From: an uncultured Sphingobacteriales bacterium
GTDB lineage: Bacteria > Bacteroidota > Bacteroidia > Chitinophagales > Chitinophagaceae
Assembly (NCBI GenBank): GCA_946479435.1
Contig: CAMLFX010000027.1
Span: 1-33,114 of the forward strand
DNA length: 33,114 bases
Direction: 5' to 3'
Shown here: positions 443-23,355 of the stretch, piece after piece
How positions within the stretch are numbered: position 1 is the first letter of the stretch
Layout: every line of letters begins with the position of its first letter
The notes under the pieces: model-generated
Database searches by the model: none
Seen by the model: only the letters and a program-made list of their open reading frames with translations
What the model was told of the DNA's origin: nothing
Translations under genes and position numbers: made by a program

Positions 443-1837
443 TTAATGAACGTTTTCCAGCATCATCTCTTTAATATCGGCCATTATACGTTTGGCTATA
501 TTGTTAGAGGTAGTTTCGGTACCGCTTTCGGCATAAATGCGGATGATAGGCTCTGTGTTAGAGGTACGCAGGTGTACCCAGTCGCTATCGAAATCTATAC
601 GCAAACCATCTTCGGTATTAATAGGTTGCTTTTTATATTTATCTTTTATCTGTGCGAAGATGTTCTTAACGTTCACATTTTCGTTCAACTCTATCTTATT
701 CTTCGATATGAAGTAGTTAGGGTAAGTGCCACGCAAAGCTTTGATGCTTTTGCCAAACTTAGCCAGGTGGGTAAGGAACAATGCAATGCCTATCAAAGCA
801 TCGCGGCCATAATGCAGTTCAGGTACAATCACACCACCATTGCCTTCGCCGCCAATTACAGCATTTACCTCTTTCATTTTCTTTACCACATTCACTTCGC
901 CCACAGCACTTGGAAAATATTCGCCACCATGTTTTTCGGTGACATCGCGCAGCGCACGCGTAGAAGAGAGATTGGAAACTGTATTGCCTTTTTTGTGCGA
1001 TAAGATATAGTCGGCAATAGCTACCAATGTATATTCTTCGCCAAACAAGCTGCCATCTTCGCATACAAAGCAAAGGCGGTCAACATCAGGATCAACAGCT
1101 ATACCCAAATGTGCATTTTGTTTTTCAACAGCACTGCAAAGTTCGCGTAGGTTTTCAGGAAGTGGCTCCGGGTTGTGTGCAAAGCGTCCGGTAACTTCTT
1201 CATTTATCACAGTAACTTCTTCAACACCCAGGGCTTTCAATAGCTGTGGTACTGAAAGTGAACCTGTTGAGTTGACAGGATCGACAATTATTTTGAAGTT
1301 CTTCTCTGCAATAGCTTTTACATCAACCAAAGGGTGAGCTAATATCTCATCGATATGTTTTTGAATATACGCATCATTGTATGTAAGGGTGCCCACTTTA
1401 TTGATGTCGGCAAATTCGTGTTCGTTCTTATCAGCATAGTCCAGTATCCACTGGCCGGCATCAGCGCTTAAGAATTCACCATCTGCATTCAGCAGTTTCA
1501 ATGCATTCCATTCTTTAGGGTTATGGCTGGCAGTTAGTATGATGCCACCACCAGCTTTTTCCATTTTTACCGCCATCTCTACGGTTGGGGTAGTGCTTAA
1601 GCCAAGATCAATAACATCGAAGCCAGAACTTTGCAACGTAGCAGCTACCAGGTTGCGTACCATTTCGCCCGATATACGGCCATCGCGGCCAATAATTATT
1701 TTGTTATTGCTGCCTTGTGCAGCTATCCACGCACCATAAGCTGTGGTGAATTTTACTACGTCAATAGGGGTGAGTCCTGAACCAGGTTTGCCACCAATGG
1801 TGCCCCTGATGCCGGAAATAGATTTGATAAGTGCCAT
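443..1837 (-). CDS. glmM: Phosphoglucosamine mutase
   Basis: 464-residue member of the alpha-D-phosphohexomutase family, which converts glucosamine-6-phosphate to glucosamine-1-phosphate for UDP-GlcNAc, peptidoglycan and LPS synthesis in the cytoplasm. The phosphoserine loop TASHNP places the catalytic Ser at residue 104. The metal loop DPDVDR gives Asp249, Asp251 and Asp253. The sugar-binding loop is GEGNGG at 330-335, and the phosphate-binding loop RTSNTEP is at 424-430. The GEGNGG loop differs from the GEQSGH of E. coli GlmM and resembles archaeal-type phosphoglucosamine mutases, so a broader phosphomannomutase/phosphoglucomutase activity is possible. Length is normal and the ATG start is clear. 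A PAS kinase gene lies upstream, separated by 124 bases. Confidence 0.92.
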   Translation of the reverse strand: MALIKSISGIRGTIGGKPGSGLTPIDVVKFTTAYGAWIAAQGSNNKIIIGRDGRISGEMVRNLVAATLQSSGFDVIDLGLSTTPTVEMAVKMEKAGGGIILTASHNPKEWNALKLLNADGEFLSADAGQWILDYADKNEHEFADINKVGTLTYNDAYIQKHIDEILAHPLVDVKAIAEKNFKIIVDPVNSTGSLSVPQLLKALGVEEVTVINEEVTGRFAHNPEPLPENLRELCSAVEKQNAHLGIAVDPDVDRLCFVCEDGSLFGEEYTLVAIADYILSHKKGNTVSNLSSTRALRDVTEKHGGEYFPSAVGEVNVVKKMKEVNAVIGGEGNGGVIVPELHYGRDALIGIALFLTHLAKFGKSIKALRGTYPNYFISKNKIELNENVNVKNIFAQIKDKYKKQPINTEDGLRIDFDSDWVHLRTSNTEPIIRIYAESGTETTSNNIAKRIMADIKEMMLENVH

Positions 1838-1873
1838 GCTAAAATAAAACTATAAGAGGTATAAATGAGTATG

Positions 1874-1881
1874 CGAAGATA
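1874..1881 (-). promoter_or_regulatory. Possible -7 promoter element of glmM
   Basis: On the minus strand this reads TATCTTCG, one mismatch from the Bacteroidota -7 consensus TAnnTTTG, 36 bases upstream of the glmM ATG. No convincing TTTG element sits 19 bases further upstream, so this is a weak call. Confidence 0.3.
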
Positions 1882-1961
1882 AGCCTTTACAAGTCATTTT
1901 TCTTTTGTGACTAATGGATTTTAACCGGCATATAATGTGCCAAAAGCTGTGGTTTGAAGTA

Positions 1962-4730
1962 TTAAGCAGGGATTATAATTGTAAATACAGAGCCCTTACC
2001 AGGATCGCTATCGGCGTAAATGGTGCCGCCATGATTTTCTGTTATTTTTTTGCATATTGCCAGTCCTATACCCGTACCCTCGTAATCGCTTTTGCTATGC
2101 AAACGCTGGAAGATAGTGAATATTTTATGCTCGAATTGTTTATCGAAACCAATACCATTATCTGCCACCTGGATTTGTAAATATTTTTTTGAAGGATTAA
2201 TGCCATCAATATTTACCTCAGAAGCCTTTAAATACTTATAGGTAATAAATATTTCGGGCGCCTGGTTTTGTTTTGAAAATTTTAATGAATTACTGATAAG
2301 GTTTTGCAATAACTGGCCAAATTGAAGACGTACTATTTTGGCCGTAGGCAGGGCATCAGTTTTTATAATTGCCTTTTTTTGCTCAATCCTGTATTCGAGT
2401 GTTTGCAAAACATCATTCAGTACTTCGTTCAAATCAGTTTGTTCGAATGCTTTATTGCCGGATATTGTAGATATGGTAAGTAAATCGTTGATCATATCTT
2501 GCATCCTGATGGCAGAATGTACTATTTTATCCAGATACATTTTACCACTATCGGTAAGCAATTGCTTTTGCGTAGTTTGTAGCAGATCGCCGAAAGTTGC
2601 AATTTTTCTAAGTGGTTCTTTCAAGTCGTGGCTTGCTACGTAAGCATATTCGCCCAGGCTGGCATTCGATTGCTGCAGTTCCAGATTTTTATAATTCAAT
2701 GCTTCTTCTGCCTCCATTTGTTCCGTAACATCTACCGAAACATTTAAAATGTGTTCTATTTTACCTTCTTCATTTCTATCGAAAATAATACCGTACGTGT
2801 TGAACCATTTATAGGTGCCATTGGCATGCAGTATGCGGTATTTAAACTCTACTACTCTTTCATTATCATATTCTGCCGATGACATATTTGCTTCCGCTAC
2901 AGCATTATTATGTTTATCCAGCACGGCAGTTACATCATCGGGGTGTACAAGGCTTACTAAATATTGAAAACCTTGCTGCATAATAAAATCAACATTGTAG
3001 CCTAATAAACTTTCTATTGCACTGTTTATATATGTGAAGGCACCTGTATTGGCGTTGAATGTAGTGATAAGAGATGGGGTAGTGTTTGCTATTTTTTGTA
3101 TGAATTCGCGGTTGTCGCGCAGGGTATTTTCAATAAGTTGCTGTTTAGTTACATCTTGTGCAGTGCCAAACATTTTTACGGCTATACCATTTTCATCAGT
3201 TTTCACTTCGCCTTTGCTTAGTATATACTTAATAGTGCCGTTTTTCATTACTAATCTATGATGCACTTCGTACGGAGTATGATTGGTAAAACATTCCTGT
3301 ATAACGGTGCTTACACGTGCAACATCATCCGGGTGAAGTAATGACATATATTCCTCGAAGGTTACTGCGCCATACGACGGCTCAAGGCCAAATATCCTGT
3401 ATAATTCATCCGTCCATTCTATTTTATTGTTCGGTATATCCCATGTCCAGTTGCCTATTTTTCCAAGCTCCTGCGCCTGTTTGTATAATGCCTCACTACG
3501 CTGTAACTGTAACAATAACTGGTGCCTGTTTGTAACATCCATTACCGTTCCTGTCATTATCTTACGGCCATTTTTTATGGTTACTGTGCCGCGCGACCAG
3601 ATAACTTTTTCGTCTCCATTAACATTGTACCTGTATTCGGTGTCATAATCGCCTGTTTCCTCTATTGCCTTATTTCTTACAGCAGCTATTCTTTCTGCAT
3701 CTTCGGGGTGTAAATGCTTCTGCATATCCTTGGGCATTGCGCCTTCAGCAATATTGAGCAAGCGCCTGTAGTTTGGTGAAGGGATGAATATGTTATTATC
3801 TATATCCCACTCAAAGCTGCCCATGCCCGCCTGTATTTGTGCTGTATTGAGTTGCGCCTCACTCTTTTTCAATTCTTCATCTCTGCGCTTTTGTTCATCT
3901 ATATCCAGCGTGATGCCTATTATTTGGGTAGGTAAACCACTGCTATTTCTTTTAAATACAGACCGATAGCTTCTTGACCATTTATAGCTGCCATCTTTTT
4001 GCTTTACCCGATATTCTATTTTTCTTATTTCGCCATCATCAGCATTTTTAAAAGCTTCCTGGTCGGCTTTTATAAGTACTGCATCTTCCGGGTGTAGCTC
4101 ATCGCCATCTTTACCTAAGGCATCGTTGCTATATATGATTTTTTCGTGCTGCAGATCGTACACATATATATTACCCGGTGTTGTATTGGCAATACTTTCA
4201 ATAAAATATGCGTGCTGGTTGGTGCGCTGCCTGAATATATTGATGTATGTATTGGTTGATGCCGTGCTTGATTCAGCTTCATACTCCTCGATCTCTTTTA
4301 TGATATCGAGCATTAGCATAGCATCTGAAGTGTACAATGGCAAAAATTTGAACTGGGCCATTTTGCGGATGTAGCTGCCCAGTGTAATATCTTCGGCAGA
4401 AAGGTCGTCGCGGCTCATTACACCTATCTCATCATTCTCCCAAACCTTTAACGCCTTCTCCAGGCGTTCTTTCAAACTATTATTTTCAACTGCCAGCAAA
4501 AACTCTTCGTGTGAAACTTTTCCTATCTCCAGCATCTGTTCTTTGGAAAGATGTTGCAAATAGGCTAGTATAGGCAGGTTGAGCTTGAATGATAGATCTA
4601 TTTGCTCAGTTATGTATTCAACAAGGTGATTTTCGCGTATATATTTTGCGAAGGCAGGGTAAAATTTAAAGGTGAAATCTTTCCCCTCAACTACATTATT
4701 GTTCTGAAATGGTGTAGCTGTTGTTGACAA
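1962..4730 (-). CDS. Cytoplasmic multi-PAS sensor histidine kinase
   Basis: 922-residue protein with no membrane segment or signal peptide. Residues 1-150 form a helical acidic region I cannot assign. Four PAS/PAC units follow, at about 185-285, 300-400, 425-530 and 545-670, with repeated HPED/HPDD and GT..DVT motifs. The dimerisation/phosphoacceptor helix has VASHDLKEPLRK with His701. The ATPase domain shows an N box (LLQNLISNSLKFS, about 808-820), a G1 box (DNGIGF, 857-862) and a G2 box (GTGIGLAI, 886-893). It should autophosphorylate in response to soluble signals, perhaps redox, light or small ligands, through the PAS domains. No receiver domain or response-regulator gene is nearby, so it is an orphan kinase. 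The start is TTG at 4728-4730: a TAA lies just upstream in frame and the first in-frame ATG is 64 codons later. Confidence 0.92.
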   Translation of the reverse strand: MSTTATPFQNNNVVEGKDFTFKFYPAFAKYIRENHLVEYITEQIDLSFKLNLPILAYLQHLSKEQMLEIGKVSHEEFLLAVENNSLKERLEKALKVWENDEIGVMSRDDLSAEDITLGSYIRKMAQFKFLPLYTSDAMLMLDIIKEIEEYEAESSTASTNTYINIFRQRTNQHAYFIESIANTTPGNIYVYDLQHEKIIYSNDALGKDGDELHPEDAVLIKADQEAFKNADDGEIRKIEYRVKQKDGSYKWSRSYRSVFKRNSSGLPTQIIGITLDIDEQKRRDEELKKSEAQLNTAQIQAGMGSFEWDIDNNIFIPSPNYRRLLNIAEGAMPKDMQKHLHPEDAERIAAVRNKAIEETGDYDTEYRYNVNGDEKVIWSRGTVTIKNGRKIMTGTVMDVTNRHQLLLQLQRSEALYKQAQELGKIGNWTWDIPNNKIEWTDELYRIFGLEPSYGAVTFEEYMSLLHPDDVARVSTVIQECFTNHTPYEVHHRLVMKNGTIKYILSKGEVKTDENGIAVKMFGTAQDVTKQQLIENTLRDNREFIQKIANTTPSLITTFNANTGAFTYINSAIESLLGYNVDFIMQQGFQYLVSLVHPDDVTAVLDKHNNAVAEANMSSAEYDNERVVEFKYRILHANGTYKWFNTYGIIFDRNEEGKIEHILNVSVDVTEQMEAEEALNYKNLELQQSNASLGEYAYVASHDLKEPLRKIATFGDLLQTTQKQLLTDSGKMYLDKIVHSAIRMQDMINDLLTISTISGNKAFEQTDLNEVLNDVLQTLEYRIEQKKAIIKTDALPTAKIVRLQFGQLLQNLISNSLKFSKQNQAPEIFITYKYLKASEVNIDGINPSKKYLQIQVADNGIGFDKQFEHKIFTIFQRLHSKSDYEGTGIGLAICKKITENHGGTIYADSDPGKGSVFTIIIPA

Positions 4731-13220: not shown

Positions 13221-13970
13221 ATGAAGCCTGTTCGTTCCCTGCCGTTACTTATTGGTCGTAAGCCTATTCTGGAAGCTCTGGAACAGGGCACTACTATTGA
13301 AAAAATATTCCTGTTGCGCACGGCAACGGGTCCCGAAGTGATCACTATTAAACAACTGGCACGCGAACGCAATATCCCCATAAGCCAGGTACCCGTTGAA
13401 AAACTGAATAACATGACCAAGGCGCAACACCAGGGTGTTGTAGCATGGACAAGCCTTTTACAATATATAGAACTGCAGGATGGTATATCGCATGTGGTAG
13501 ACCAGGGTATCACGCCTTTATTTGTAATGCTGGATGGGGTGACCGATGTGCGTAATGTAGGTGCCATAGCACGCAGTGCCTTATGCTGTGGTGCCCAGGG
13601 TTTGATATTACCTACTTCATCATCGGCATCGCTTACAGAAGAGGCAATTAAAACATCGGCAGGTGCATTGAATAAGATATTGTTGTGCCGGATACCATCA
13701 GTACAACAAGCGGTTGATGTATTGCGATTGAATGGTATACAAGTATTAGGCACACAAATGAAGGGTAGTATACCCGTTCACGAAGCTAACCTTACCGGGC
13801 CTACCTGTATAGTGATGGGCGCTGAGGATACAGGTATTAGTAAAGATGTGATACGCCGCGCCGATACCCTGATACGTATCCCCATGGCTACTGCATTCGA
13901 TTCGCTGAATGTATCTGTAGCTACGGGTATGATACTATACGAAGCTATGCGCCAGCGTATTACTTCGTAA
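13221..13970 (+). CDS. rlmB: SpoU-family 23S rRNA 2'-O-methyltransferase (RlmB-type)
   Basis: 249-residue SPOUT (trefoil-knot) methyltransferase. The N-terminal substrate-binding domain (about 7-80) has LIGRKPILEALEQG, and the catalytic domain shows motif 1 DVRNVGAIARSA, motif 2 MGAEDTGIS and motif 3 IPMATAFDSLNVSVATG. The family methylates the ribose of a guanosine in rRNA (G2251 in E. coli 23S rRNA) or tRNA. Domain order and length favour RlmB over TrmH. Motif 2 has GAEDTG in place of the commoner GSEGxG. The ATG at 13221 immediately precedes the conserved domain. A second SpoU gene (trmH-like) is at 32582. Confidence 0.88.
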   Translation: MKPVRSLPLLIGRKPILEALEQGTTIEKIFLLRTATGPEVITIKQLARERNIPISQVPVEKLNNMTKAQHQGVVAWTSLLQYIELQDGISHVVDQGITPLFVMLDGVTDVRNVGAIARSALCCGAQGLILPTSSSASLTEEAIKTSAGALNKILLCRIPSVQQAVDVLRLNGIQVLGTQMKGSIPVHEANLTGPTCIVMGAEDTGISKDVIRRADTLIRIPMATAFDSLNVSVATGMILYEAMRQRITS

Positions 13971-13995
13971 TTCACAGCGTGTTCATAAAATAGTT

Positions 13996-14026
13996 TTTTA
14001 TTTTCTTCTGCTGTTCTCTACATTTG
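13996..14026 (+). promoter_or_regulatory. Promoter of the cobalamin-riboswitch operon
   Basis: TACATTTG at 14019-14026 matches the -7 consensus, and TTTT sits at the -33 position (13996-13999) with exactly 19 bases between. The predicted start point, near 14032, coincides with the first base-paired strand of the riboswitch. Confidence 0.7.
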
Positions 14027-14030
14027 CACC

Positions 14031-14206
14031 ACGAAGGTTTCCATGTTGTGGTTATATCATAACAGGAATGAAAAGGGAACCGGGTGTAAATCCCGGACAT
14101 TACCCGATGCTGTAAGCTTCAATAACAGCTTTTGTACCCGCTGCCACTGTTTGAAAAATAACGGGAAGGCCACAAAAGTGAAGTAAGTCAGAAGACCTGC
14201 CTTTGT
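14031..14206 (+). ncRNA. Cobalamin (AdoCbl/B12) riboswitch
   Basis: Conserved blocks appear in order: GGGAACCGGGTGTAAATCCCGGAC with CCCGATGCTGTAAGC, GCCACTG at 14143-14149, CGGGAAGGC at 14162-14170, and the B12 box AGTCAGAAGACCTGCC at 14186-14201. The outer P1 stem pairs ACGAAGG (14031-14037) with CCTTTGT (14200-14206). Cobalamin riboswitches normally turn the downstream gene off when the vitamin is abundant. Here it precedes four genes consistent with B12 capture and uptake, which supports the call. Confidence 0.95.
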
Positions 14207-14230
14207 AAATATACTTATCGTTGCTTTCGG

Positions 14231-14286
14231 GATAAAAGCACAGATGGGACAAAGGCGCCACCTAACAGTTCAGGCTTTTATCTTTT
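14231..14286 (+). terminator. Possible riboswitch expression platform (conditional terminator)
   Basis: GATAAAAGC (14231-14239) is complementary to GCTTTTATC (14274-14282), followed by TTTT. The 34-base loop contains ACAAAGGC (14249-14256), a perfect complement of GCCTTTGT at the 3' end of the riboswitch (14199-14206), so P1 and this alternative helix exclude each other. Whether it stops transcription or controls translation is inference. Confidence 0.5.
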
Positions 14287-14337
14287 CTGCAATTTTCCGT
14301 AGCTGCGTTTGACACAGTTTTTAAACTATCAAACTAT

Positions 14338-15327
14338 ATGCGCAGACTTACACTTTTGTTCTTAGCCGTTTTAGGCTTCACTGCTACTAAAGCACAAACA
14401 GTAGCTATTTTCGATACGCTGACCCTGCCGGGTGCAGATACGTTTTACGTAAATATGAATAACTCCGGTACAGATGTAGGTTTTGACGATGGCCTGGCAC
14501 ATTTTGAGTGCTATTACCAAAGCAGCCAGTTTGGCACCTATTGGGATCATGGTTTCTCTTATTCCAATGTTGTTGATTCCCTGACGGGTGACTATACTAA
14601 CGACCATGCTACCATTGCAGGTTATGGTTATAACAATTCACCACAGTACGTTGTTGCATGGGGGCCTTCAAGCAAAGTGTTCCTAAAAGGTAAGGCACAA
14701 GGCCAACCCGTAAATGGTTTTTACATATCTAATGCTACTTACCCATATTTCATAATGAAAGATGGTGATCCATTTGGCTTTGCTAAAAAAATGGGTGGCC
14801 CAAGTGGTAACGATTCTGACTGGTATAGCGTAATAGTAAAAGGCTATCATAATGGCCAACTGACTACAGATAGCGTAGAAACTTTTCTGGCGGATTTCCG
14901 TGACCCAAGCAATGTCACAGATACGCTTTACCGTGGCTGGAGATGGGTAAACCTTTTGCCACTTGGTGAAGTAGATAGTCTGGTATTTACCATTAGCTCA
15001 TCAGATGTTGGTCAATTTGGTATGAACACCCCGGCTTATTTCTGTATTGACAACTTTGGCACCTATGAAACAAGTTCCGTAAAATCGGTTAAAGAAAATA
15101 TAGCTAAAGTTTATCCTAACCCTGCTACTGATAAATTGTACGTTGAAATGCAGAACAATAACGCAACTGAATTGTATGTATACGATATGAGTGGTAAAAT
15201 AGTAATGAGCACGAAGACAAACGATAAAGTAACTTTGCTTTCTACTAACGCATTGACACCGGGCAACTATATGCTGCAAATTGTGAATGGCAATAGCAGG
15301 GCTGCGGTACGTTTTGTAAAACAATAA
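14338..15327 (+). CDS. T9SS-secreted DUF4465 protein, probable surface cobalamin-binding protein
   Basis: 329-residue exported protein: signal peptide 1-19 (LLFLAVLGFTATKA), a DUF4465-type beta-sandwich domain at about 20-245 (FDDGLAHFECYY, GYGYNNSPQYVVAW, NGFYISNATYPYFIMKDGD, CIDNFGTYE), and a type A T9SS sorting domain at about 255-329 with YPNPATDKLYVE and a final GNYMLQIVNG strand. As first gene after a B12 riboswitch and in front of BtuG- and BtuB-like genes it most likely captures cobalamin at the cell surface. From memory, surface B12-binding BtuH lipoproteins of gut Bacteroides belong to this or a related family. Unlike them, this protein has no lipobox and should be exported through T9SS. 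Confidence 0.85.
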   Translation: MRRLTLLFLAVLGFTATKAQTVAIFDTLTLPGADTFYVNMNNSGTDVGFDDGLAHFECYYQSSQFGTYWDHGFSYSNVVDSLTGDYTNDHATIAGYGYNNSPQYVVAWGPSSKVFLKGKAQGQPVNGFYISNATYPYFIMKDGDPFGFAKKMGGPSGNDSDWYSVIVKGYHNGQLTTDSVETFLADFRDPSNVTDTLYRGWRWVNLLPLGEVDSLVFTISSSDVGQFGMNTPAYFCIDNFGTYETSSVKSVKENIAKVYPNPATDKLYVEMQNNNATELYVYDMSGKIVMSTKTNDKVTLLSTNALTPGNYMLQIVNGNSRAAVRFVKQ

Positions 15328-15330
15328 TTG

Positions 15331-16329
15331 ATGCGAAAAATTTTATTAATAATATGCTTTGTCCTGGTGCAATTGGGGGTACAAGCCCAATTTGCACCAC
15401 AGGCAGGGGTAAGTGGCACAACAGCCATTGGTAAAACCAGTGGTTTGTTCACCGGTTGGGCTACAGGTTGTAGTATAAATCGCGGGTATATAGATATTGC
15501 AGATCCCGCACAAGGCAATGTATCGCTAGGTACTGATGCTGATGCAGTAGGTATGGCTGATAATATGATCGTTAGCCTGGGAGATAGTGGTATTGCTACG
15601 CTTACATTCAGCCACCCGATATATAATGGCCCCGGTGCCGACTTTGCGGTATTTGAAAATGGTTTCTCTAATCCTGCAAATGCAGAAGAAGCATTTTTAG
15701 AACTGGCTTTTGTTGAAGTAAGTTCTGATGGCATCAACTTCCATCGCTTTGCACCATCATCGCTTTCATCTGAAACTGTGCAGGTACCTGCTGCGGGTGT
15801 GTACATGACTGCACGGCTTATCAATAACCTTGCAGGTAAGTATGTTGGCGGTTATGGTACTCCTTTCGATCTGCAGGAACTGGAAAGCATATCAGGGCTT
15901 GACATAAATAATATAACACATGTGCGTATTGTGGATGTTATAGGTTCATTGACCGGACATGAAACATACGATAAAGACGGCCATAAAATAAATGACCCAT
16001 ACCCAACTGCATTTGCAGGTGGCGGGTTCGATCTGGACGGGGTGGGTGCCTTTTATCAGCATGGTTTATTTCCTGTATCTGTAAATAGCTTAGCTACAAG
16101 TCCGGTAAAGGTTTACCCTAACCCGACTACGGATAGAGTATTTATACAAACCGAAAATGAAGGTAATTATACATTAGTACTTACCGATGTAACAGGTAAA
16201 ATTTTACAACAGATCAATTCAGCGAAAAATAATAATATAGACATGTCTGCTTATAAAACAGGTATATATGCGTTGATAATTGAGGATGCAACCGGTAAAC
16301 GATGGGTAGAAAGAATAATCAAACTATAA
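15331..16329 (+). CDS. T9SS-secreted surface protein of the B12 operon
   Basis: 332 residues, with a signal peptide (ILLIICFVLVQLGVQA) and a T9SS type A sorting domain at the C-terminus (YPNPTTDR at about 262-269, then TGIYALIIED and WVERIIKL). The central region has beta-sandwich patterns found in secreted Bacteroidota proteins: FAVFENGFSNP, AFVEVSSDGINFHRF, THVRIVDVIGS and GGGFDLDGVGAF. No catalytic motif is visible. The previous stop codon ends at 15327; TTG at 15328 is possible, but ATG at 15331 is the natural start. Its position between the DUF4465 and BtuG-like genes suggests a second cobalamin- or corrinoid-capture subunit; function is inferred only from context. Confidence 0.8.
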   Translation: MRKILLIICFVLVQLGVQAQFAPQAGVSGTTAIGKTSGLFTGWATGCSINRGYIDIADPAQGNVSLGTDADAVGMADNMIVSLGDSGIATLTFSHPIYNGPGADFAVFENGFSNPANAEEAFLELAFVEVSSDGINFHRFAPSSLSSETVQVPAAGVYMTARLINNLAGKYVGGYGTPFDLQELESISGLDINNITHVRIVDVIGSLTGHETYDKDGHKINDPYPTAFAGGGFDLDGVGAFYQHGLFPVSVNSLATSPVKVYPNPTTDRVFIQTENEGNYTLVLTDVTGKILQQINSAKNNNIDMSAYKTGIYALIIEDATGKRWVERIIKL

Positions 16330-17384
16330 GTAAGCTATTATTAGCTTGCATTGTGTTTTTTACGGCCTGTGTAAAAGACAAGCCAGATCCGTATGTACCA
16401 CCTGTAGCCGTTGATAGCACTAATAATGTATATATAGTTTGTGAAGGAAGCCTCGGTAATGGCAATTCATCTCTTGGCCTTTACCAGACAGAAGACGGAC
16501 AAACTTTTGAAGATGTTTACAAATCGGCAAATAACCATGACCTTGGTGACGTATTGCAAAGCATCACACCAATTGGTGACCGCTTTTTTCTGTGTGTAAA
16601 TAATTCTGATAAAATTGTGATCATTAATAAAGATGATCACAAGCAAGTTGGCTCTATCAGCATTCCTAAGCCAAGGTATATATTACCTATAAATCCTAAT
16701 AAGGCTTATGTTTCCACACTATTCAGCAAAAAACTGTATGTGATAGATCCTCAGGCTATGTCGGTAACAAAGATCATCGACCTGCCTTATGAAAATGCAG
16801 AAGGTATGTTGCTGAGAGATGGTATAGCTTATGTTTGCCCCTGGGATACTGCTACGGATAAAGTGTTGCTTATGGATACACAGACTGATGAAATAAGGCA
16901 AACTGTTGCAGTTGCGGGAAGAGCACCACAAGATATACTAACAGATAAGAATGGTAAGTTGTGGATATTATCCGGTAATGTGTATAAAAATAAAGATGCA
17001 GCATTAACCTGTATCGACCCTAATAGTAATCAGGTTGTAACGTCTTACCTGTTCCAACATAAAGTTGATCCTATAAGATTAGTGACAAACAACGCGAAAG
17101 ACCAGTTATATTTTATTGAAGTAGACTATAACGCAGGGATTGAAAACAACGGTATCTATCGTATGAATATTAATGATGCTTCACTACCCACACAGGCATT
17201 GATACCGGCAGCAAAGTTTCAGTACTTTTGGGCACTGGGTATAGAGCCTGGTACAGGCAAAATATATGTTGGTGATCCCAAAGGGTTTATTCAGAAAGGA
17301 TCGGTCGGTATTTATAATACCGATGGTGTAAAAGAAAAAGAGTTCAGTACAGGCATAGGTCCAGGTCATTTTTATTTTCAGTAA
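16302..17384 (+). CDS. BtuG-like beta-propeller surface lipoprotein
   Basis: 360-residue lipoprotein: lipobox VFFTAC with Cys23, followed by VKDKPDP, then YncE/YVTN-type propeller repeats (VYIVCEGSLGNGNSSLGLY, ILPINPNKAYVSTLFSKKLYVID, ILTDKNGKLWILSGNVY, ALGIEPGTGKIYVGDP). BtuG of Bacteroides is a propeller lipoprotein that binds B12 very tightly and sits as a lid on BtuB; this protein has the same architecture and operon position, next to a BtuB-like receptor. The ATG overlaps the 3' end of the preceding gene by 28 bases, implying translational coupling. It is followed with no gap by the receptor gene. Cobalamin specificity is inferred from the riboswitch and neighbours. Confidence 0.82.
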   Translation: MGRKNNQTISKLLLACIVFFTACVKDKPDPYVPPVAVDSTNNVYIVCEGSLGNGNSSLGLYQTEDGQTFEDVYKSANNHDLGDVLQSITPIGDRFFLCVNNSDKIVIINKDDHKQVGSISIPKPRYILPINPNKAYVSTLFSKKLYVIDPQAMSVTKIIDLPYENAEGMLLRDGIAYVCPWDTATDKVLLMDTQTDEIRQTVAVAGRAPQDILTDKNGKLWILSGNVYKNKDAALTCIDPNSNQVVTSYLFQHKVDPIRLVTNNAKDQLYFIEVDYNAGIENNGIYRMNINDASLPTQALIPAAKFQYFWALGIEPGTGKIYVGDPKGFIQKGSVGIYNTDGVKEKEFSTGIGPGHFYFQ

Positions 17385-19322
17385 ATGCATTTAAAGAATT
17401 CAATAAAGAGAAAACAGGTAGCATTGCTTTTAGTAATGCTATTTTCTTTTTGCGAGGTAAAGGCGCAGATAATAAAAGATACACTTACGGAAGTAAAGGT
17501 AAAGACACACAGAAAAATAAGAATATCGAACGACGAACGTATCAATACCTATTCACCTGGGCAGAAGGTACAGACAATAGATAGTATTACACTGCAACAA
17601 TACCAGTTTCAAAGCATGGCAAATTTGCTGTCGCAGCAAGTGCCGGTATTTGTAAAGTCTTATGGTTTCAATTCTTTAGCGACGCTCAATTTTCGCGGAG
17701 CGTCGGCGGCACAGTCGCAGGTATATTGGAATGGTATACCTATCCAGAATGCAGCTTCCGGCGTGGCTGACGTTTCATTGCTGCCTGTATCATTACTTAG
17801 TAAAGTGAATGTAGTTTATGGCAGTTCATCGGCATTATGGGGTAGTGGCAATGTGGGCGGTGCATTATTGGTTGAAACTGAACATCCGGATTTCGATTCC
17901 GTGGGAGGTTTTGAACATGCTGTTTCTGCAGTTGTCGGTAGTTACAATCAATACCAATTAGGTATCAAATCAGGACTGAAGACAAAACGTTTTGCATTAG
18001 GCATTACAGCCTTTGGGCAGACTGCTGAAAATGATTTTAAGTATTACGATGGTAAAGCCGATCAACATACCAATAATTCTAAACTGCAAAGTGGAGTGGT
18101 AATGCTGAATAGCGGTTATAAGCTGAACAACAAAAATGAATTGTCGGTAACAGGTTGGTATCAACAATATTATAGAGAAATACCTAAAGCATTATTCGAA
18201 GATGTATCAGTAAAAAACCAGCGCGATGAGTCGTTGCGTTTATTGGCTGAATGGAAACGAACAGGTAACAAAACAAATACCTATAGCAAAGTGGCGTACC
18301 TGCGCAATAATATGTTGTATAGTGATGATACGATTAAGTTAAGGTCGCAGTACAGCACAAATCAACTATTTGGTGAGGTGGGAGTCAATCATCGTTTTAA
18401 TAGTCATCACCAGTTGCTGGCTTTTATACCAGTGCAAGCGTCGTGGATACGCAGGGAGCTAATGAATGATGTGAAAACGCAAAACAAGGCTGCGATTGCA
18501 TTGGCTTATGCAGTTAATTATTTCCAGGAGAAGTTGAATATGTCTGTAACAGCACGTGGAGAGGTTGTGAATGGCTGGAGCGCATTTCTGCCGGGCATCA
18601 ATGCTTCGTACCAATTAACTGATTGGCTGAAGATCAGGGCCAATGTGCAAAAAAGCTTCAGGGCACCTACGCTTAATGAACTGTATTATGTACCGGGCGG
18701 TAATGAATTGTTGAAACCCGAAGAAGGTTGGAATGAAGATGCAGGTTACGTAATAAGGGTTGGTGCCAACAGAAGATTGACCCTAACACATGACTTTGCA
18801 GTATTCAATCGTGTAATAGATAATTGGATCGTTTGGTTTGGCGGTGCTATCTGGACTCCTCACAACATTGCCTCAGTACACAGCCGTGGTATAGAAACGC
18901 AAAATAAACTGAACTATAAGATCAATAAAAGTTGGTCTGCTTATATAGGTGCCAATACTTCTTATGTGCTGGCTACTACTTTAGAAAGCTATTTACCAGG
19001 CGATGGAAGTATTGGTAAACAAATACCATATACACCTCGCTATAACTACCAGGGTAATATCGGTTTCTCATACAAAACCCTATTTGTTAACTATAACCAT
19101 ACTTATACCAGCTATCGTTTTGTTACTATCGATGAATCGCAATACTTGTTGCCGTATAATACAGGTAATATTCAGGTGCTGTATAGTTTAGCTAATAGCA
19201 GGTTGCCATTGCAGTTTACAGCCCAATGCAACAATGTATGGAATTCGAAATATGCTGTAGTGAATGCACGCCCAATGCCGGGTGTCAACTGGTTGGTAGG
19301 TATAAAAGCAAGCATTAACTAA
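17385..19322 (+). CDS. TonB-dependent receptor, BtuB-like cobalamin transporter
   Basis: 645-residue outer-membrane receptor. A signal peptide ends at about residue 27 (EVKA|Q). A plug domain at about 55-165 follows (LSQQVPVFVKSYGFNSLATL, FRGASAAQSQVYWNGIPIQN, VYGSSSALWGSGNVGGALL), then a 22-strand-type barrel with FRAPTLNELYYVPGG and a C-terminal strand ending VGIKASIN. There is no N-terminal carboxypeptidase-regulatory domain, so it resembles classical BtuB more than SusC-type receptors. ATG immediately follows the BtuG-like stop (TAAATG). With the riboswitch upstream, TonB-driven uptake of cobalamin is the best prediction; the btuFCD inner-membrane importer is not in the window. Confidence 0.88.
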   Translation: MHLKNSIKRKQVALLLVMLFSFCEVKAQIIKDTLTEVKVKTHRKIRISNDERINTYSPGQKVQTIDSITLQQYQFQSMANLLSQQVPVFVKSYGFNSLATLNFRGASAAQSQVYWNGIPIQNAASGVADVSLLPVSLLSKVNVVYGSSSALWGSGNVGGALLVETEHPDFDSVGGFEHAVSAVVGSYNQYQLGIKSGLKTKRFALGITAFGQTAENDFKYYDGKADQHTNNSKLQSGVVMLNSGYKLNNKNELSVTGWYQQYYREIPKALFEDVSVKNQRDESLRLLAEWKRTGNKTNTYSKVAYLRNNMLYSDDTIKLRSQYSTNQLFGEVGVNHRFNSHHQLLAFIPVQASWIRRELMNDVKTQNKAAIALAYAVNYFQEKLNMSVTARGEVVNGWSAFLPGINASYQLTDWLKIRANVQKSFRAPTLNELYYVPGGNELLKPEEGWNEDAGYVIRVGANRRLTLTHDFAVFNRVIDNWIVWFGGAIWTPHNIASVHSRGIETQNKLNYKINKSWSAYIGANTSYVLATTLESYLPGDGSIGKQIPYTPRYNYQGNIGFSYKTLFVNYNHTYTSYRFVTIDESQYLLPYNTGNIQVLYSLANSRLPLQFTAQCNNVWNSKYAVVNARPMPGVNWLVGIKASIN

Positions 19323-19372
19323 ACATTTAACTTGTATTTGATATTTCGTAAATTGTAGCATAACTTCCTGAT

Positions 19373-19987
19373 ATGCGTGCCTTCCTTATACTTTTTATAG
19401 TTCTAACTACCACACTTACACAGGCAAAAGACCGGCATTATGTGTTTTATTTACATGGCGCAATAGTAGAGGGCACAACTGAAGACCCATCGAGTCCTAC
19501 CTATGGCGTTTACGAATACAGCAACATTGTCAAATCGCTGAAAGACAAAGATTACGTAGTGTATTCAGAAGTAAGGCCAACAGGCACAGATGTGAAAGCG
19601 TATGCTGAGAAAATAAAGCTACAGATAGATAGTTTAAAGAATACAGGTGTGGCCAGCACCAATATATGTGTTATTGGTGCGTCGAAAGGCGCATTAATAA
19701 CCATGCTGGTTTCTGGTTTGGTAAAAGATAAGAGTGTGAAGTACGTAATAATGGCTGCATGCAATGAAAGCAATAAAAGCGCATATAACCCTGATCTTTA
19801 TGGGCAAATATTATCGATATACGAAAAGAGTGATGGAATAGGTAAAAGCTGCGAAGCAATAAAACTTGATTCAAAAGGTATTAGCCGGTATAAAGAGATA
19901 CAGTTAAACACTGGACTGGGACATGGTTTTTTATATAAGCCTTTAATGGTTTGGATGAAGCCGGTAGAAGAATGGATAGTGCGCTAA
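19373..19987 (+). CDS. Secreted alpha/beta hydrolase-like protein
   Basis: 204 residues with an N-terminal signal peptide (FLILFIVLTTTLTQA). The alpha/beta-hydrolase features are YLHG near the first strand (oxyanion region, 26-29), a nucleophile elbow GASKG with Ser104, and a late GHGF with His184; Asp154 in EKSDG is a candidate third residue. It therefore probably acts as an esterase or similar hydrolase in the periplasm or outside the cell. It begins 50 bases after the receptor gene on the same strand with no visible terminator between them, so read-through from the B12 operon is possible. Substrate unknown. Confidence 0.75.
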   Translation: MRAFLILFIVLTTTLTQAKDRHYVFYLHGAIVEGTTEDPSSPTYGVYEYSNIVKSLKDKDYVVYSEVRPTGTDVKAYAEKIKLQIDSLKNTGVASTNICVIGASKGALITMLVSGLVKDKSVKYVIMAACNESNKSAYNPDLYGQILSIYEKSDGIGKSCEAIKLDSKGISRYKEIQLNTGLGHGFLYKPLMVWMKPVEEWIVR

Positions 19988-20032
19988 ACTCTGGCACAAA
20001 CAAGATATAATGAGTATTATTGCAAGCAAATA

Positions 20033-20872
20033 ATGCAATACATGAGGTTGAGAATGTTGCTGTTGCCTGTTTTGTTTTGCGCCTGTATTTACAATGCGTC
20101 AGCGCAAAATGAAGAGCCGATAGGTATATATACAGAAAATGGTTTTACCCGTTACGTATCGGTAGGGGCAGGTGCTGTATATCAATCATTCAGAGATGAG
20201 GCGATTTCTAAAAGTATATATGAAGGCTTGAGCGCCAGCCCGGTTTTGAAATTGGTGAAAACACGTGAAAACACTTTATCTGAAATTGCTTTACAAGCCT
20301 CAAGGATGAGTTTTAAACGTGATAGCGACCCGTTGCTGGAACAAAAAGTAAAAACCTGGAGGGCTGTTGCTGATTATCGATATATGCAAACACTGCCATT
20401 GTTTGTAGAGGAAGAAAAGAATAAACTATTTATTGGGGGGCAACTATCAGGTATGTTTTGCTATAAAAATGCCCCAAAGCTTGCGGGCTCTTCATCGGTA
20501 TATGAATATGCTATTACATTAGGCCCCAGTGCTAGATTTACCAAGAAATTCGAAATGAAAGATAAGTACCACGGCTTATCTATCGACATATCGGTACCGG
20601 TACTTAACTATACTGCAAGACCATCCTATTTAAACCGTACCAGTTCGCTGGAAGATGATAATGTAAGTGCCCGTGATGTTTTCTCTAAGGCAAAACTGAG
20701 TTCTTTCGGTGGCATGTTTCGCTTAAATACAGGTATATCATACATGTATATGCTAGATAATGGCAATGCAGTAAATATTGCCTACAACTGGGATTATTAT
20801 CATATCAATAATAACACTGAAGTTTACTTTGCCAGTCATACCCTTTCACTTTTATTTATGTTCAACTACTAG
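20033..20872 (+). CDS. Probable outer-membrane beta-barrel protein
   Basis: 279 residues if started at ATG 20033; ATG 20042 or 20054 are alternatives because the signal peptide proper begins at RLRMLLLPVLF. Cleavage is likely after SAQ. The mature chain alternates hydrophobic and polar residues in predicted strands (FTRYVSVGAGAVYQSF, LFIGGQLSGMFCY, AITLGPSARFTKKF, NAVNIAYNWDYYHI) and ends with strand LSLLFMFNY, whose terminal aromatic is typical for BamA-inserted barrels. The signal contains LFCAC, but cleavage at SAQ fits better than lipidation. Family not recognised. It precedes the S41 gene by 3 bases and is surely co-transcribed with it. Confidence 0.7.
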   Translation: MQYMRLRMLLLPVLFCACIYNASAQNEEPIGIYTENGFTRYVSVGAGAVYQSFRDEAISKSIYEGLSASPVLKLVKTRENTLSEIALQASRMSFKRDSDPLLEQKVKTWRAVADYRYMQTLPLFVEEEKNKLFIGGQLSGMFCYKNAPKLAGSSSVYEYAITLGPSARFTKKFEMKDKYHGLSIDISVPVLNYTARPSYLNRTSSLEDDNVSARDVFSKAKLSSFGGMFRLNTGISYMYMLDNGNAVNIAYNWDYYHINNNTEVYFASHTLSLLFMFNY

Positions 20873-20875
20873 CAG

Positions 20876-21913
20876 ATGAGGACTTATATTCTATTGCTTA
20901 CTTCTGTATTGATTATTCTCTTTTCTTCCTGCGAAAAAATTTTAATGCCCAAGGAAAATAAAGATCTGGATCCTGTTGAAGTATTTGATGAATTGTGGAA
21001 GGCTGTTGATAGAGGTTATGGCAATTTCGATTTCAAGAAAGTGAATTGGGATTCAGTGTATCGTGTTTATAAGCCTATGGTAAGTCCTGCGCTTACTGAA
21101 GAACAGTTGTATGATGTTTGTGCCTCGATGCTGCAAGTATTTAGAGACCATGAAATAAATCTGGACGCAGGTTTTGCCCAGGCTTCTTATGTTGATACAG
21201 GTAGTTATCCCGCAAATTTTAGCGAGCTTTTGCTGAAACAACATTATTGGAAAGACTATGGTGAAACAGGTCCGCTTTTATATAGTGTAATTGATTCGAT
21301 GGCTTATTTCTATTATCGCGATTTCGATAATGGTGTGACCGAAGAACAAATGAATGCAGCCATAAAACGTGTGAAAAGTATGGGTGGCGTGCATGGTACT
21401 ATCATAGATATTCGTAACAATAGCGGTGGCATAGCTAAAAATACATGGGAAGTTTTGCGCCATGTAGATATCCCAGACTCGCTGAATAATATCACATCAT
21501 TCTTATATCAATCGCAATATAAGAATGGCCCCAAACACGGGGATTATAGCGAATATGAAGATGCTTATATAGATGAAAGTGGTGGGGAGAAGTACCCCGG
21601 TAGGGTAATGATACTTACCAACAGAGGGTGTACAGGTGCATCAAATTTACTAGCAGCAGGTTGCAGCTCATTTGCCAAAGTTGTAGTAATTGGAGATACT
21701 ACTGGTGGTGGCGGTGGTTTTATTAGTGCTAATGAGTTGCCTAACGGCTGGCGTATTTACTATCCATCATCGCGTACGTTATCCTCTTCCGGAGATAATA
21801 TTGCTAATGGTTTGGCCCCGGATATTGTTATATATATGCAGCCTGCAGACGAGGCTGCAGGTAAAGATTCCATTATTGAAGCAGCTATTACAGAGCTAAA
21901 AAAAGATTTATAG
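20876..21913 (+). CDS. S41 (C-terminal processing protease-like) family lipoprotein, probably catalytically altered
   Basis: 345-residue lipoprotein with lipobox LFSSC (Cys19) and an S41 peptidase-type fold: N-terminal helical cap (about 33-95), then IIDIRNNSGG (about 176-185), MILTNRGCTGASNLLAAG (246-263) and GDTTGGGGGF (273-282). In related Bacteroidota S41 proteins the nucleophile lies in TNRxxxSA; here that position is Gly254, with Ser256 two residues later. It may be an inactive binding protein or use a shifted serine. No PDZ domain is visible. It is the last gene of the plus-strand series and ends two bases before the convergent GT39 gene. Confidence 0.82.
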   Translation: MRTYILLLTSVLIILFSSCEKILMPKENKDLDPVEVFDELWKAVDRGYGNFDFKKVNWDSVYRVYKPMVSPALTEEQLYDVCASMLQVFRDHEINLDAGFAQASYVDTGSYPANFSELLLKQHYWKDYGETGPLLYSVIDSMAYFYYRDFDNGVTEEQMNAAIKRVKSMGGVHGTIIDIRNNSGGIAKNTWEVLRHVDIPDSLNNITSFLYQSQYKNGPKHGDYSEYEDAYIDESGGEKYPGRVMILTNRGCTGASNLLAAGCSSFAKVVVIGDTTGGGGGFISANELPNGWRIYYPSSRTLSSSGDNIANGLAPDIVIYMQPADEAAGKDSIIEAAITELKKDL

Positions 21914-21915
21914 TG

Positions 21916-23355
21916 TTATTTAACTCTCGCCAGGCACCAATTATCAAATGCCTGGTTGCATTCTATTTGCTCGCTTACGTTATTATCGATCCTAGTTTTT
22001 TCTATTAATAATACCTGGCCTTTGTGCTGAGCAAGTTCTTTTGTTACATCAACACGATTGAAGCCTAAGCCCATCCATGTCATTTTCAATAAAATATTTT
22101 GTGGTGTTGCAGATACAACAACGTAGTTGGTATTAGCAAGCATCTTATTGTTTTTATTTAAGACACTGGTCATTTCTTTAGGCAAAGATTGGAGATATGC
22201 AATATGTCTTACAAAGAGAAATGTAAATAACAAGCCATACACAGCATAAGATACTTTCCATTTGTTACCGAGATACACAATACATTTTGCAATGAGAAAA
22301 GCGATAAATCCCCAAGTGGGTGCTAAATACCAGTCGTGCTTATTTGTTGCAAAACTCAACACTAGCACTAATGGGGCAATAGTGCATAGTGAAAAAAGCA
22401 TAGGCTTGTTACTTTTTATATAACCACGCAAATTCTTTCGACTTTTGTAAAGCAGGGCAACACCTATCAATAACGACAAATAGAAAAGATAGTTCCAAAC
22501 ATTCATCCGGACATCCAGCGAGTTGAAGAAAAAAGCATGATCCTTTTTATAAGTCGCTGATTCGAATGCAGGGTCAGTCAACCTTCTGAATGTATCATGC
22601 ACCAACATTGTTTCTAGGTTGTTTTTGCTGCCATAAAATGAATGTCCTGTTGTTTTGCCATATATAGATAGCAGTATAGGCCATGATGCTACAATTGCTA
22701 CTAACAGAAGGATAGAGATGTAAGCCTATCTGCTTTTAATTGTGTTTTTGAGATTACCACTTATAAGCAGGTATAAAAGAAAACCCGGCAAGAAAATAAA
22801 TGCTGCAGAACCTTTGGTGTAAAATGCCAGGCCGGTATATAGTGCAGTTAATAGTATTTGATTTTTATCTCCATTTTCAGCATATCTGTAGAAACTGTAT
22901 GCAGAAAGGGTTAGGAATAATACTAATGTTGCATCAAAATCGCCATTTAGCCCTACGTGCCAACCAATAATAGCCTTGCACGATAATAAGATGAGGCAAG
23001 TGATAAATGCTGTTAAAGCTGTATCAAATAATTCCACCAGTCTGAAGAGTACATAAAAGAATAGCATGGTAGCAAGTGTAGAAACAAGCCTGAGAGCAAA
23101 CTCATTGAAACCGAATATTTTGTAGCTGGCAACTATTAACCAAATGACTAGTGGTGGTTTTGCGTTCCAGGTATCCAATTCACCGGCATAATATGAATTT
23201 ACATAGTCGCCATTATGGTACATTTCAAAGGCATTCATCCCATTTCTAGATTCATCCCATTCACTTAAGCTAACAGTACCTATTGTTGTAAATAATAGAG
23301 AAGCTGCAAAGACTAGTATTATTAATAAATATGTATTTTTCCGTGTATGTTTCAT
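21916..23355 (-). pseudogene. GT39/ArnT-like membrane glycosyltransferase interrupted by an in-frame TAG
   Basis: On the minus strand one continuous frame of 480 codons runs from ATG 23355 to the stop at 21916, interrupted only by TAG at 22728-22726 (codon 210). Before it (209 residues) are the family hallmarks: a first membrane helix, then SEWDESRNGMNAFEMYHNGD with the catalytic-type Asp and NAKPPLVIWLIV, followed by several helices. The downstream 269 codons continue in the same frame with more helices and a soluble tail. Such enzymes move sugars from polyprenyl-phosphate carriers onto lipids or proteins. TAG is an ordinary stop for other genes here (12169, 20872, 21913), so this is most simply a nonsense mutation or sequencing error. 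Both halves would be needed for function. Confidence 0.8.

Follow-up and report, generated by a model that had tools for sequence, protein, structure and literature searches.

Positions 14018 to 19322 of the Bacteroidota contig CAMLFX010000027.1 hold a cobalamin riboswitch followed by four open reading frames (ORFs) on the same strand. The window, the whole stretch of DNA that was analysed, is 33,114 nucleotides long, and its source lies in the Bacteroidota with its nearest relatives among the Chitinophagales. An earlier note had described the locus as a riboswitch-controlled operon for vitamin B12 capture that uses proteins exported by the type IX secretion system (T9SS), and its placement of the riboswitch and ORFs and its domain readings were correct. 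The aptamer (14018-14218, + strand) matches the full RF00174 model (1-189) at 103.9 bits (gathering threshold 31.5, E-value 3.2e-25). The ORFs nearly touch or overlap: P1 (14338-15327), P2 (15331-16329, with its start ATG at 15331), P3 (16302-17384), which shares a 28-nt overlap with P2, and P4 (17385-19322). The analysis presented here supports a riboswitch-controlled B12-capture operon as a prediction from sequence.

Relatives were collected by a scan of contigs, one genome per species, which gave at least 593 stretches; 582 were confirmed and the best 80 kept (L001-L080). These loci are the nearest relatives and not a random set. P1 carries a DUF4465 domain (PF14717, approximately 14530-15057) at 151.2 bits against a cut-off of 25, and matches BtuJ1 (PDB 9fct) with an E-value of 1.4e-17. 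Residues 229-235 read MNTPAYF, so that the B12-binding HI loop (NTPAY) is kept, and in an alignment read by eye Tyr86, Tyr135 and Tyr234 align with the BtuJ1 halo tyrosines Tyr97, Tyr146 and Tyr245. In an alignment of 56 DUF4465 proteins, one being that of the window and the other 55 coming from 54 of the 80 loci, Tyr135 is found in 52; Tyr234 is kept in 41 and replaced by Phe in 15, and for Tyr86 the figures are 26 and 19. Binding of B12 by DUF4465, which is the BtuJ family, was reported in 2025-2026 for eight members, including BtuJ1 and BtuJ2 of Bacteroides thetaiotaomicron (PMC12751083, PMC13398666). DUF4465 genes often adjoin those of other DUF families that look like B12 accessory proteins (PMC13398666). 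P1 is thus, on its sequence, a BtuJ-type protein, for which cobalamin binding is predicted.

The earlier note had suggested that the product of the second ORF could be an undescribed cobalamin-binding family. P2 is indeed unnamed and in no Pfam family, since outside its T9SS tail no Pfam model matched and TIGR04183 (49.0 bits) was the sole model above cut-off among Pfam and NCBIfam; it is probably, however, a distant relation of the BtuH domain and not an unrelated binder. Re-ranking of Foldseek candidates by VIA-align placed the structure model of the P2 core (approximately 15385-16074) nearest to 7biz and 8blw, that is, to the fold of the BtuH C-terminal B12 domain. The DUF4465 protein P1, which the note had also proposed to compare with BtuH and BtuG structures, belongs to the BtuJ family and not to a BtuH or BtuG type. 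For profile comparison, a BtuH set of 60 sequences was obtained after filtering 120 listed matches, the query and two BtuG-BtuH fusions; the query came from a Bacteroidales region (L176), and in the PDB it matched 8blw and 7biz alone at E ≤ 0.1. The P2 core scored 99.7% against a profile of 22 distant relatives, and this profile scored 95.6% against BtuH (E-value 1.3e-8). A merged profile scored 95.0% against BtuH, covering the first third of the BtuH domain, and the DUF4465, BtuG and reversed-profile controls scored 0.1-5.3%. In the opposite direction, the BtuH profile matched two distant P2-family proteins at 29 and 26 bits. Kinship of P2 with DUF4465 (0.3%) or with BtuG (0.1%) was rejected by the same comparison.

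Conserved residues were examined in 77 aligned P2 proteins (that of the window, 58 from the 80 loci and 18 from databases). In the merged alignment BtuH2 Asn399 and Phe401, which contact the phosphate and the lower base of the ligand, fall on P2 Asn110 and Phe112, kept in 76/77 and 74/77 proteins, respectively; a single offset in the BtuH2 numbering accounts for each of the eight contacts that the structure paper names. Asp85, Asp104, Glu109, Lys170, Tyr171, Asp202, Asp214 and Asp234 are identical in all 77. BtuH2 binds calcium and sodium (PMC8941943), and the invariant acidic residues of P2 would fit metal sites of this kind. No PKD domain was matched by Pfam in P2 or in the other aligned members, no N-terminal PKD/Ig-like domains were found, and the P2 core begins directly after the signal peptide; some btuH homologues likewise come without extra domains (PMC8941943). 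The lipobox is absent from the window P2, for which reason we call it BtuH-like and not BtuH, and a lipobox-like pattern occurs in one of the 77 proteins. Together, the fold and the aligned contacts make cobamide binding by P2 probable.

Two further observations concern the P2 family. Residues 97-147 (window 15619-15771) resemble NF033170, a model of the Leptospira lipoprotein LIC_13355, at 29.2 bits, below the cut-off of 120, and 60/77 P2 proteins match this model at E ≤ 1e-3; the LIC_13355 family may share the P2 fold. The words "vitamin" and "cobalamin" do not occur in the main text of a LIC_13355 paper. One protein, P0036 (555 amino acids), apparently has two tandem P2 cores and a single tail in the alignment.

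P1 and P2 both end in a type A sorting domain above the TIGR04183 cut-off of 23, at approximately 15109-15324 in P1 (53.9 bits) and 16111-16323 in P2, as expected for T9SS cargo. The model was matched at E ≤ 1e-3 by 77/77 P2 and 56/56 DUF4465 proteins but by 0/70 BtuG-like neighbours, so the tail is specific. A lipobox-like pattern was seen in 2/56 DUF4465 proteins. Signal peptides were read by eye in P1 and P2, with cleavage before Gln20 in both; this residue is found in 74/77 P2 proteins and is invariant in the DUF4465 relatives. Substrates of signal peptidase I in Bacteroidota typically begin with Gln once cleaved. The T9SS translocon marker SprA_N was detected in 27/27 tested genomes, all of them chosen from those of related loci, and in 0/14 controls. 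Export of P1 and P2 through the T9SS, by tails that would be functional, is our prediction. The expectation that two of three capture proteins carry T9SS tails and the third is a lipoprotein was thereby borne out, again as a prediction.

That third protein, P3, is a BtuG-like β-propeller surface lipoprotein. It matches PF16819 (DUF5074) at 73.4 bits (cut-off 27.2), its PDB matches are BtuG-type chains (best 8p97_B, E-value 1.3e-36), and its lipobox Cys23 is identical in 70/70 aligned BtuG-like proteins, 63 of which have Lys at +2. P4 is a TonB-dependent receptor with PF00593 and PF07715. At E ≤ 1e-8 it matches three PDB chains, 8p97_A, 8p98_A (the one named BtuB) and 8bmx_C, all receptors of the type of the B. 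thetaiotaomicron B12 system. P4 scored 85.1 bits against TIGR01779, far below the equivalog cut-off of 599.7, and is therefore termed BtuB-like. No BtuF, BtuC or BtuD genes were seen within 13221-21913. Beyond the operon, the adjoining ORFs at 22726-23355 and 21916-22608 (- strand) appear by eye to be two parts of one membrane glycosyltransferase-like protein.

The earlier note had regarded homologues lying mostly away from riboswitches and btuB as evidence against its proposal, and this is not the pattern observed. RF00174 precedes P2, in the same orientation, in 37/40 loci of L001-L040 and 36/40 of L041-L080, 73/80 altogether, at 84 nt to 3.3 kb from the P2 core (contigs matched by coordinates). 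Of three aptamer core motifs, two or more are present in the DNA of 64 of these 73 stretches, and the other nine look like aptamers; cmscan confirmed two of those nine stretches, as well as L057 and L071. Of the seven misses, four loci (L017, L033, L034, L050) start inside the operon and three (L059, L072, L078) have no match. Since genomes hold 0-5 RF00174 copies in approximately 2 to 6 Mb, we put the probability that P2 and the riboswitch lie so close by chance at well under 1% for each locus. DUF4465 was found on the same strand within 6 kb in 59 of the 80 loci, a BtuG-like protein in 70, a BtuB-like receptor in 56 and all three in 44, incomplete contigs counting as misses. In three loci (L015, L018, L038; Pfam was run on L015 and L038) DUF4465 and P2 are fused in one ORF with one tail.

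To these we added 296 genomes drawn evenly from the phylum, of which 36 had a P2 match; 28 of these matches are distant and 8, counting the seed, are close. The 36th being the seed genome, 35 loci were fetched wide, and L145 (31 bits), probably a false match, is counted among them. RF00174 lies within the stretch in 19/35, and on the same strand within 3.5 kb there is a BtuB-like receptor in 24/35 and a BtuG-like protein in 29/35, which rejects the explanation that the riboswitch link is an artefact of picking nearest relatives. A BtuB-like receptor or RF00174 is nearby in 28/35, and the seven close loci have RF00174 in five cases and BtuB in three. Because DUF4465 was found near P2 in none of these 35 loci, with BtuB-like and BtuG-like neighbours so frequent, the association of P2 with BtuB and BtuG is old and broad and the DUF4465 pairing is confined to the window's closer relatives.

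Several loci depart from the window's layout. In L057, L065, L071 and L074, the distance from riboswitch to P2 is at most 0.5 kb, and DUF4465, BtuG and BtuB were not found in the vicinity. P2 is not the first gene in all four, as we had considered, but only in L057 and L074; in L065 (7603-7995) and L071 (689-1150) a small cysteine-rich ORF (CARCGSSFEC and CKRCSSAFEC, respectively) intervenes between riboswitch and P2. Riboswitch-led runs in L071 (1147-4437) and L074 (7959-11277) encode P2 followed by DBI_PRT (cobT), CobS and a histidine phosphatase. In L051 (6379-8001) a T9SS-tailed DUF4430 protein stands between riboswitch and P2 instead of DUF4465, and T9SS-tailed ORFs of the same length occur in L053 and L073, L051 being the one domain-scanned. 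We take DUF4430 to resemble part of animal transcobalamin. A T9SS-tailed protein of approximately 430 amino acids replaces DUF4465 between riboswitch and P2 in L045 (2596-3894), L046 (4486-5751), L056, L059, L064, L077 and L080; these seven copies were domain-scanned and show no other Pfam domain above cut-off, and their start is propeller-like by eye. It is also present in L058 and L069. The Bacteroidales region L176 (1809-12474) encodes a stand-alone BtuH, a BtuG-like protein, a BtuG-BtuH fusion and two BtuB-like receptors, and its 1809-3548 protein is by eye propeller-like with a T9SS-like tail.

The leader between aptamer and P1 contains a putative expression platform (14219-14300, + strand), in which a CTTTCGGGA-motif hairpin is followed by a longer hairpin ahead of a T-run. 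A CTTTCGGGA-type hairpin motif lies behind the aptamer in 33/37 leaders, and hairpins preceding T-runs average -15.5 kcal/mol compared to -6.8 in simple shuffles (36 loci). Because of this recurrent motif and the strong hairpins before T-runs, the leaders suggest attenuation. The fold of the window's own leader (14219-14320) was no better than that of dinucleotide shuffles (z = -0.53). A further candidate, CCGTAGCNGC 3' of the aptamer, was rejected as a general element, being present in only 5/37. Within 14219-14300 an AAAAGC segment is common to alternative hairpins, the CTTTCGGGA hairpin versus GAUAAAAGC/GCUUUUAUC, an arrangement like that of riboswitch expression platforms.

We consider it likely that the operon is a Bacteroidota variant of B12 scavenging, with BtuJ-type and BtuH-like catchers delivered by the T9SS, a BtuG-like lid and a BtuB-like importer. 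Cobalamin would presumably repress the operon in the source species, and the riboswitch would permit its expression when cobalamin is scarce. P1 and P2 would pass the inner membrane by Sec and leave through the outer one via the T9SS, shedding their sorting domains, and would then catch cobamides outside the cell, either anchored or released. The cobamide may next be handed to P3, a lipoprotein lid on P4, and imported by P4, although the order of hand-over could differ. B12 binding has been published for relatives of all four proteins (DUF4465, BtuH, BtuG and BtuB). It is conceivable, if rather doubtful, that P1 and P2 are released as soluble "cobalophores", a B12 counterpart of hemophores, which would pick up ligand at a distance and deliver it to BtuG-BtuB; the T9SS would then play the role that vesicles have for BtuJ in B. 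thetaiotaomicron.

Several results weigh against this scavenging scheme or against the place of P2 in it. With the full P2 model, Foldseek returned only multi-domain proteins at TM scores below 0.25, and with the core model 8blw_B ranked fourth (E-value 7e-3) and 7biz fell outside the best 50; plain Foldseek gave no convincing match, and the BtuH match is clear only by VIA-align. PDB sequence searches with P2, the family profile and the core profile yielded only T9SS tails or chance matches. The direct comparison of the P2 core with the BtuH profile was weak (7.9%, or 28.2% with 7biz added). On the genomic side, 16/35 wide loci have no RF00174 in the stretch fetched, and DUF4465 is absent near P2 in 21/80 of the closest loci as well as in all 35 wide ones; the DUF4465-P2 pair is therefore not obligatory, and universal pairing was rejected. 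Lastly, the BtuH2 ring contacts His476, Tyr510, Trp511 and Trp577 lie where the profiles do not align and are unplaced on P2, the phosphate and lower-base contacts being those with counterparts. It is unlikely, in our estimation, that P2 does not bind cobamides at all and is a surface adaptor or glycan-binding protein (CBM32/discoidin-like) docking the capture system to the surface or to P3/P4, with B12 handled by P1, P3 and P4.

We think it very improbable that P2 acts enzymatically, releasing or remodelling corrinoids outside the cell, for example by freeing B12 from carriers or acting on the nucleotide loop. The many polar residues invariant in P2 and the cobT and cobS genes found beside it in L071 and L074 would suit an enzyme, but the nearest folds of the core are binding domains, and metal sites like the calcium and sodium sites of BtuH2 would explain the acidic residues equally well (PMC8941943). 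Least probable, and hardly to be expected, is that the tails are non-working or unused and that P1 and P2 serve as carriers in the periplasm, between P4 and the inner membrane. More than 70% of DUF4465 proteins are predicted lipoproteins according to PMC13398666, which assigns periplasmic targeting signals to the rest, in line with such carriers. Against this, the tail is present throughout the P2 and DUF4465 proteins and missing from the BtuG-like ones, the modelled tail superposes on a NucA domain solved with the translocon, and SprA_N was found in every relative genome tested. This suggests that, in contrast to the periplasmic assignment, non-lipoprotein DUF4465 proteins in these lineages are T9SS cargo.

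The scavenging scheme would give a proposed function to a widespread, large and unnamed family that has no Pfam entry and whose members are annotated as hypothetical or T9SS-sorting-domain proteins. Vitamin scavenging would join the uses of the T9SS, and the BtuH domain, which a 2022 description held to have no structural homologues, would extend to environmental Bacteroidota. Among the matches listed in a search of the open literature, subscription journals and preprints lying outside it, there was no link between T9SS export and B12 capture and no account of the P2 family; the same applies to passages of PMC9723704, PMC12016528 and PMC12578637.

The gut Bacteroides proteins that correspond to P1 and P2 are lipoproteins (PMC12751083). 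P1 resembles BtuJ1 (BT_1491, 9fct) in its PF14717 domain, NTPAYF loop and aligned tyrosines, but BtuJ1 and BtuJ2 are vesicle-associated lipoproteins, whereas P1 is T9SS-tailed. P2 shares its core fold with the BtuH domains of B. thetaiotaomicron (BtuH2 BT_1956, 7biz; BtuG1 BT_1490 H-domain, 8blw) at 16-18% identity, and differs from them in lacking the PKD/Ig-like N-terminal domains and the lipobox and in having a T9SS tail. P3 and P4 are the counterparts of BtuG and BtuB in the gut Bacteroides BtuBG complex, P4 differing in its score well under the TIGR01779 cut-off. Compared with these systems, the operon would point to a division of labour in which the BtuG lid, docked on the transporter, keeps its lipid anchor and the catchers are secreted.

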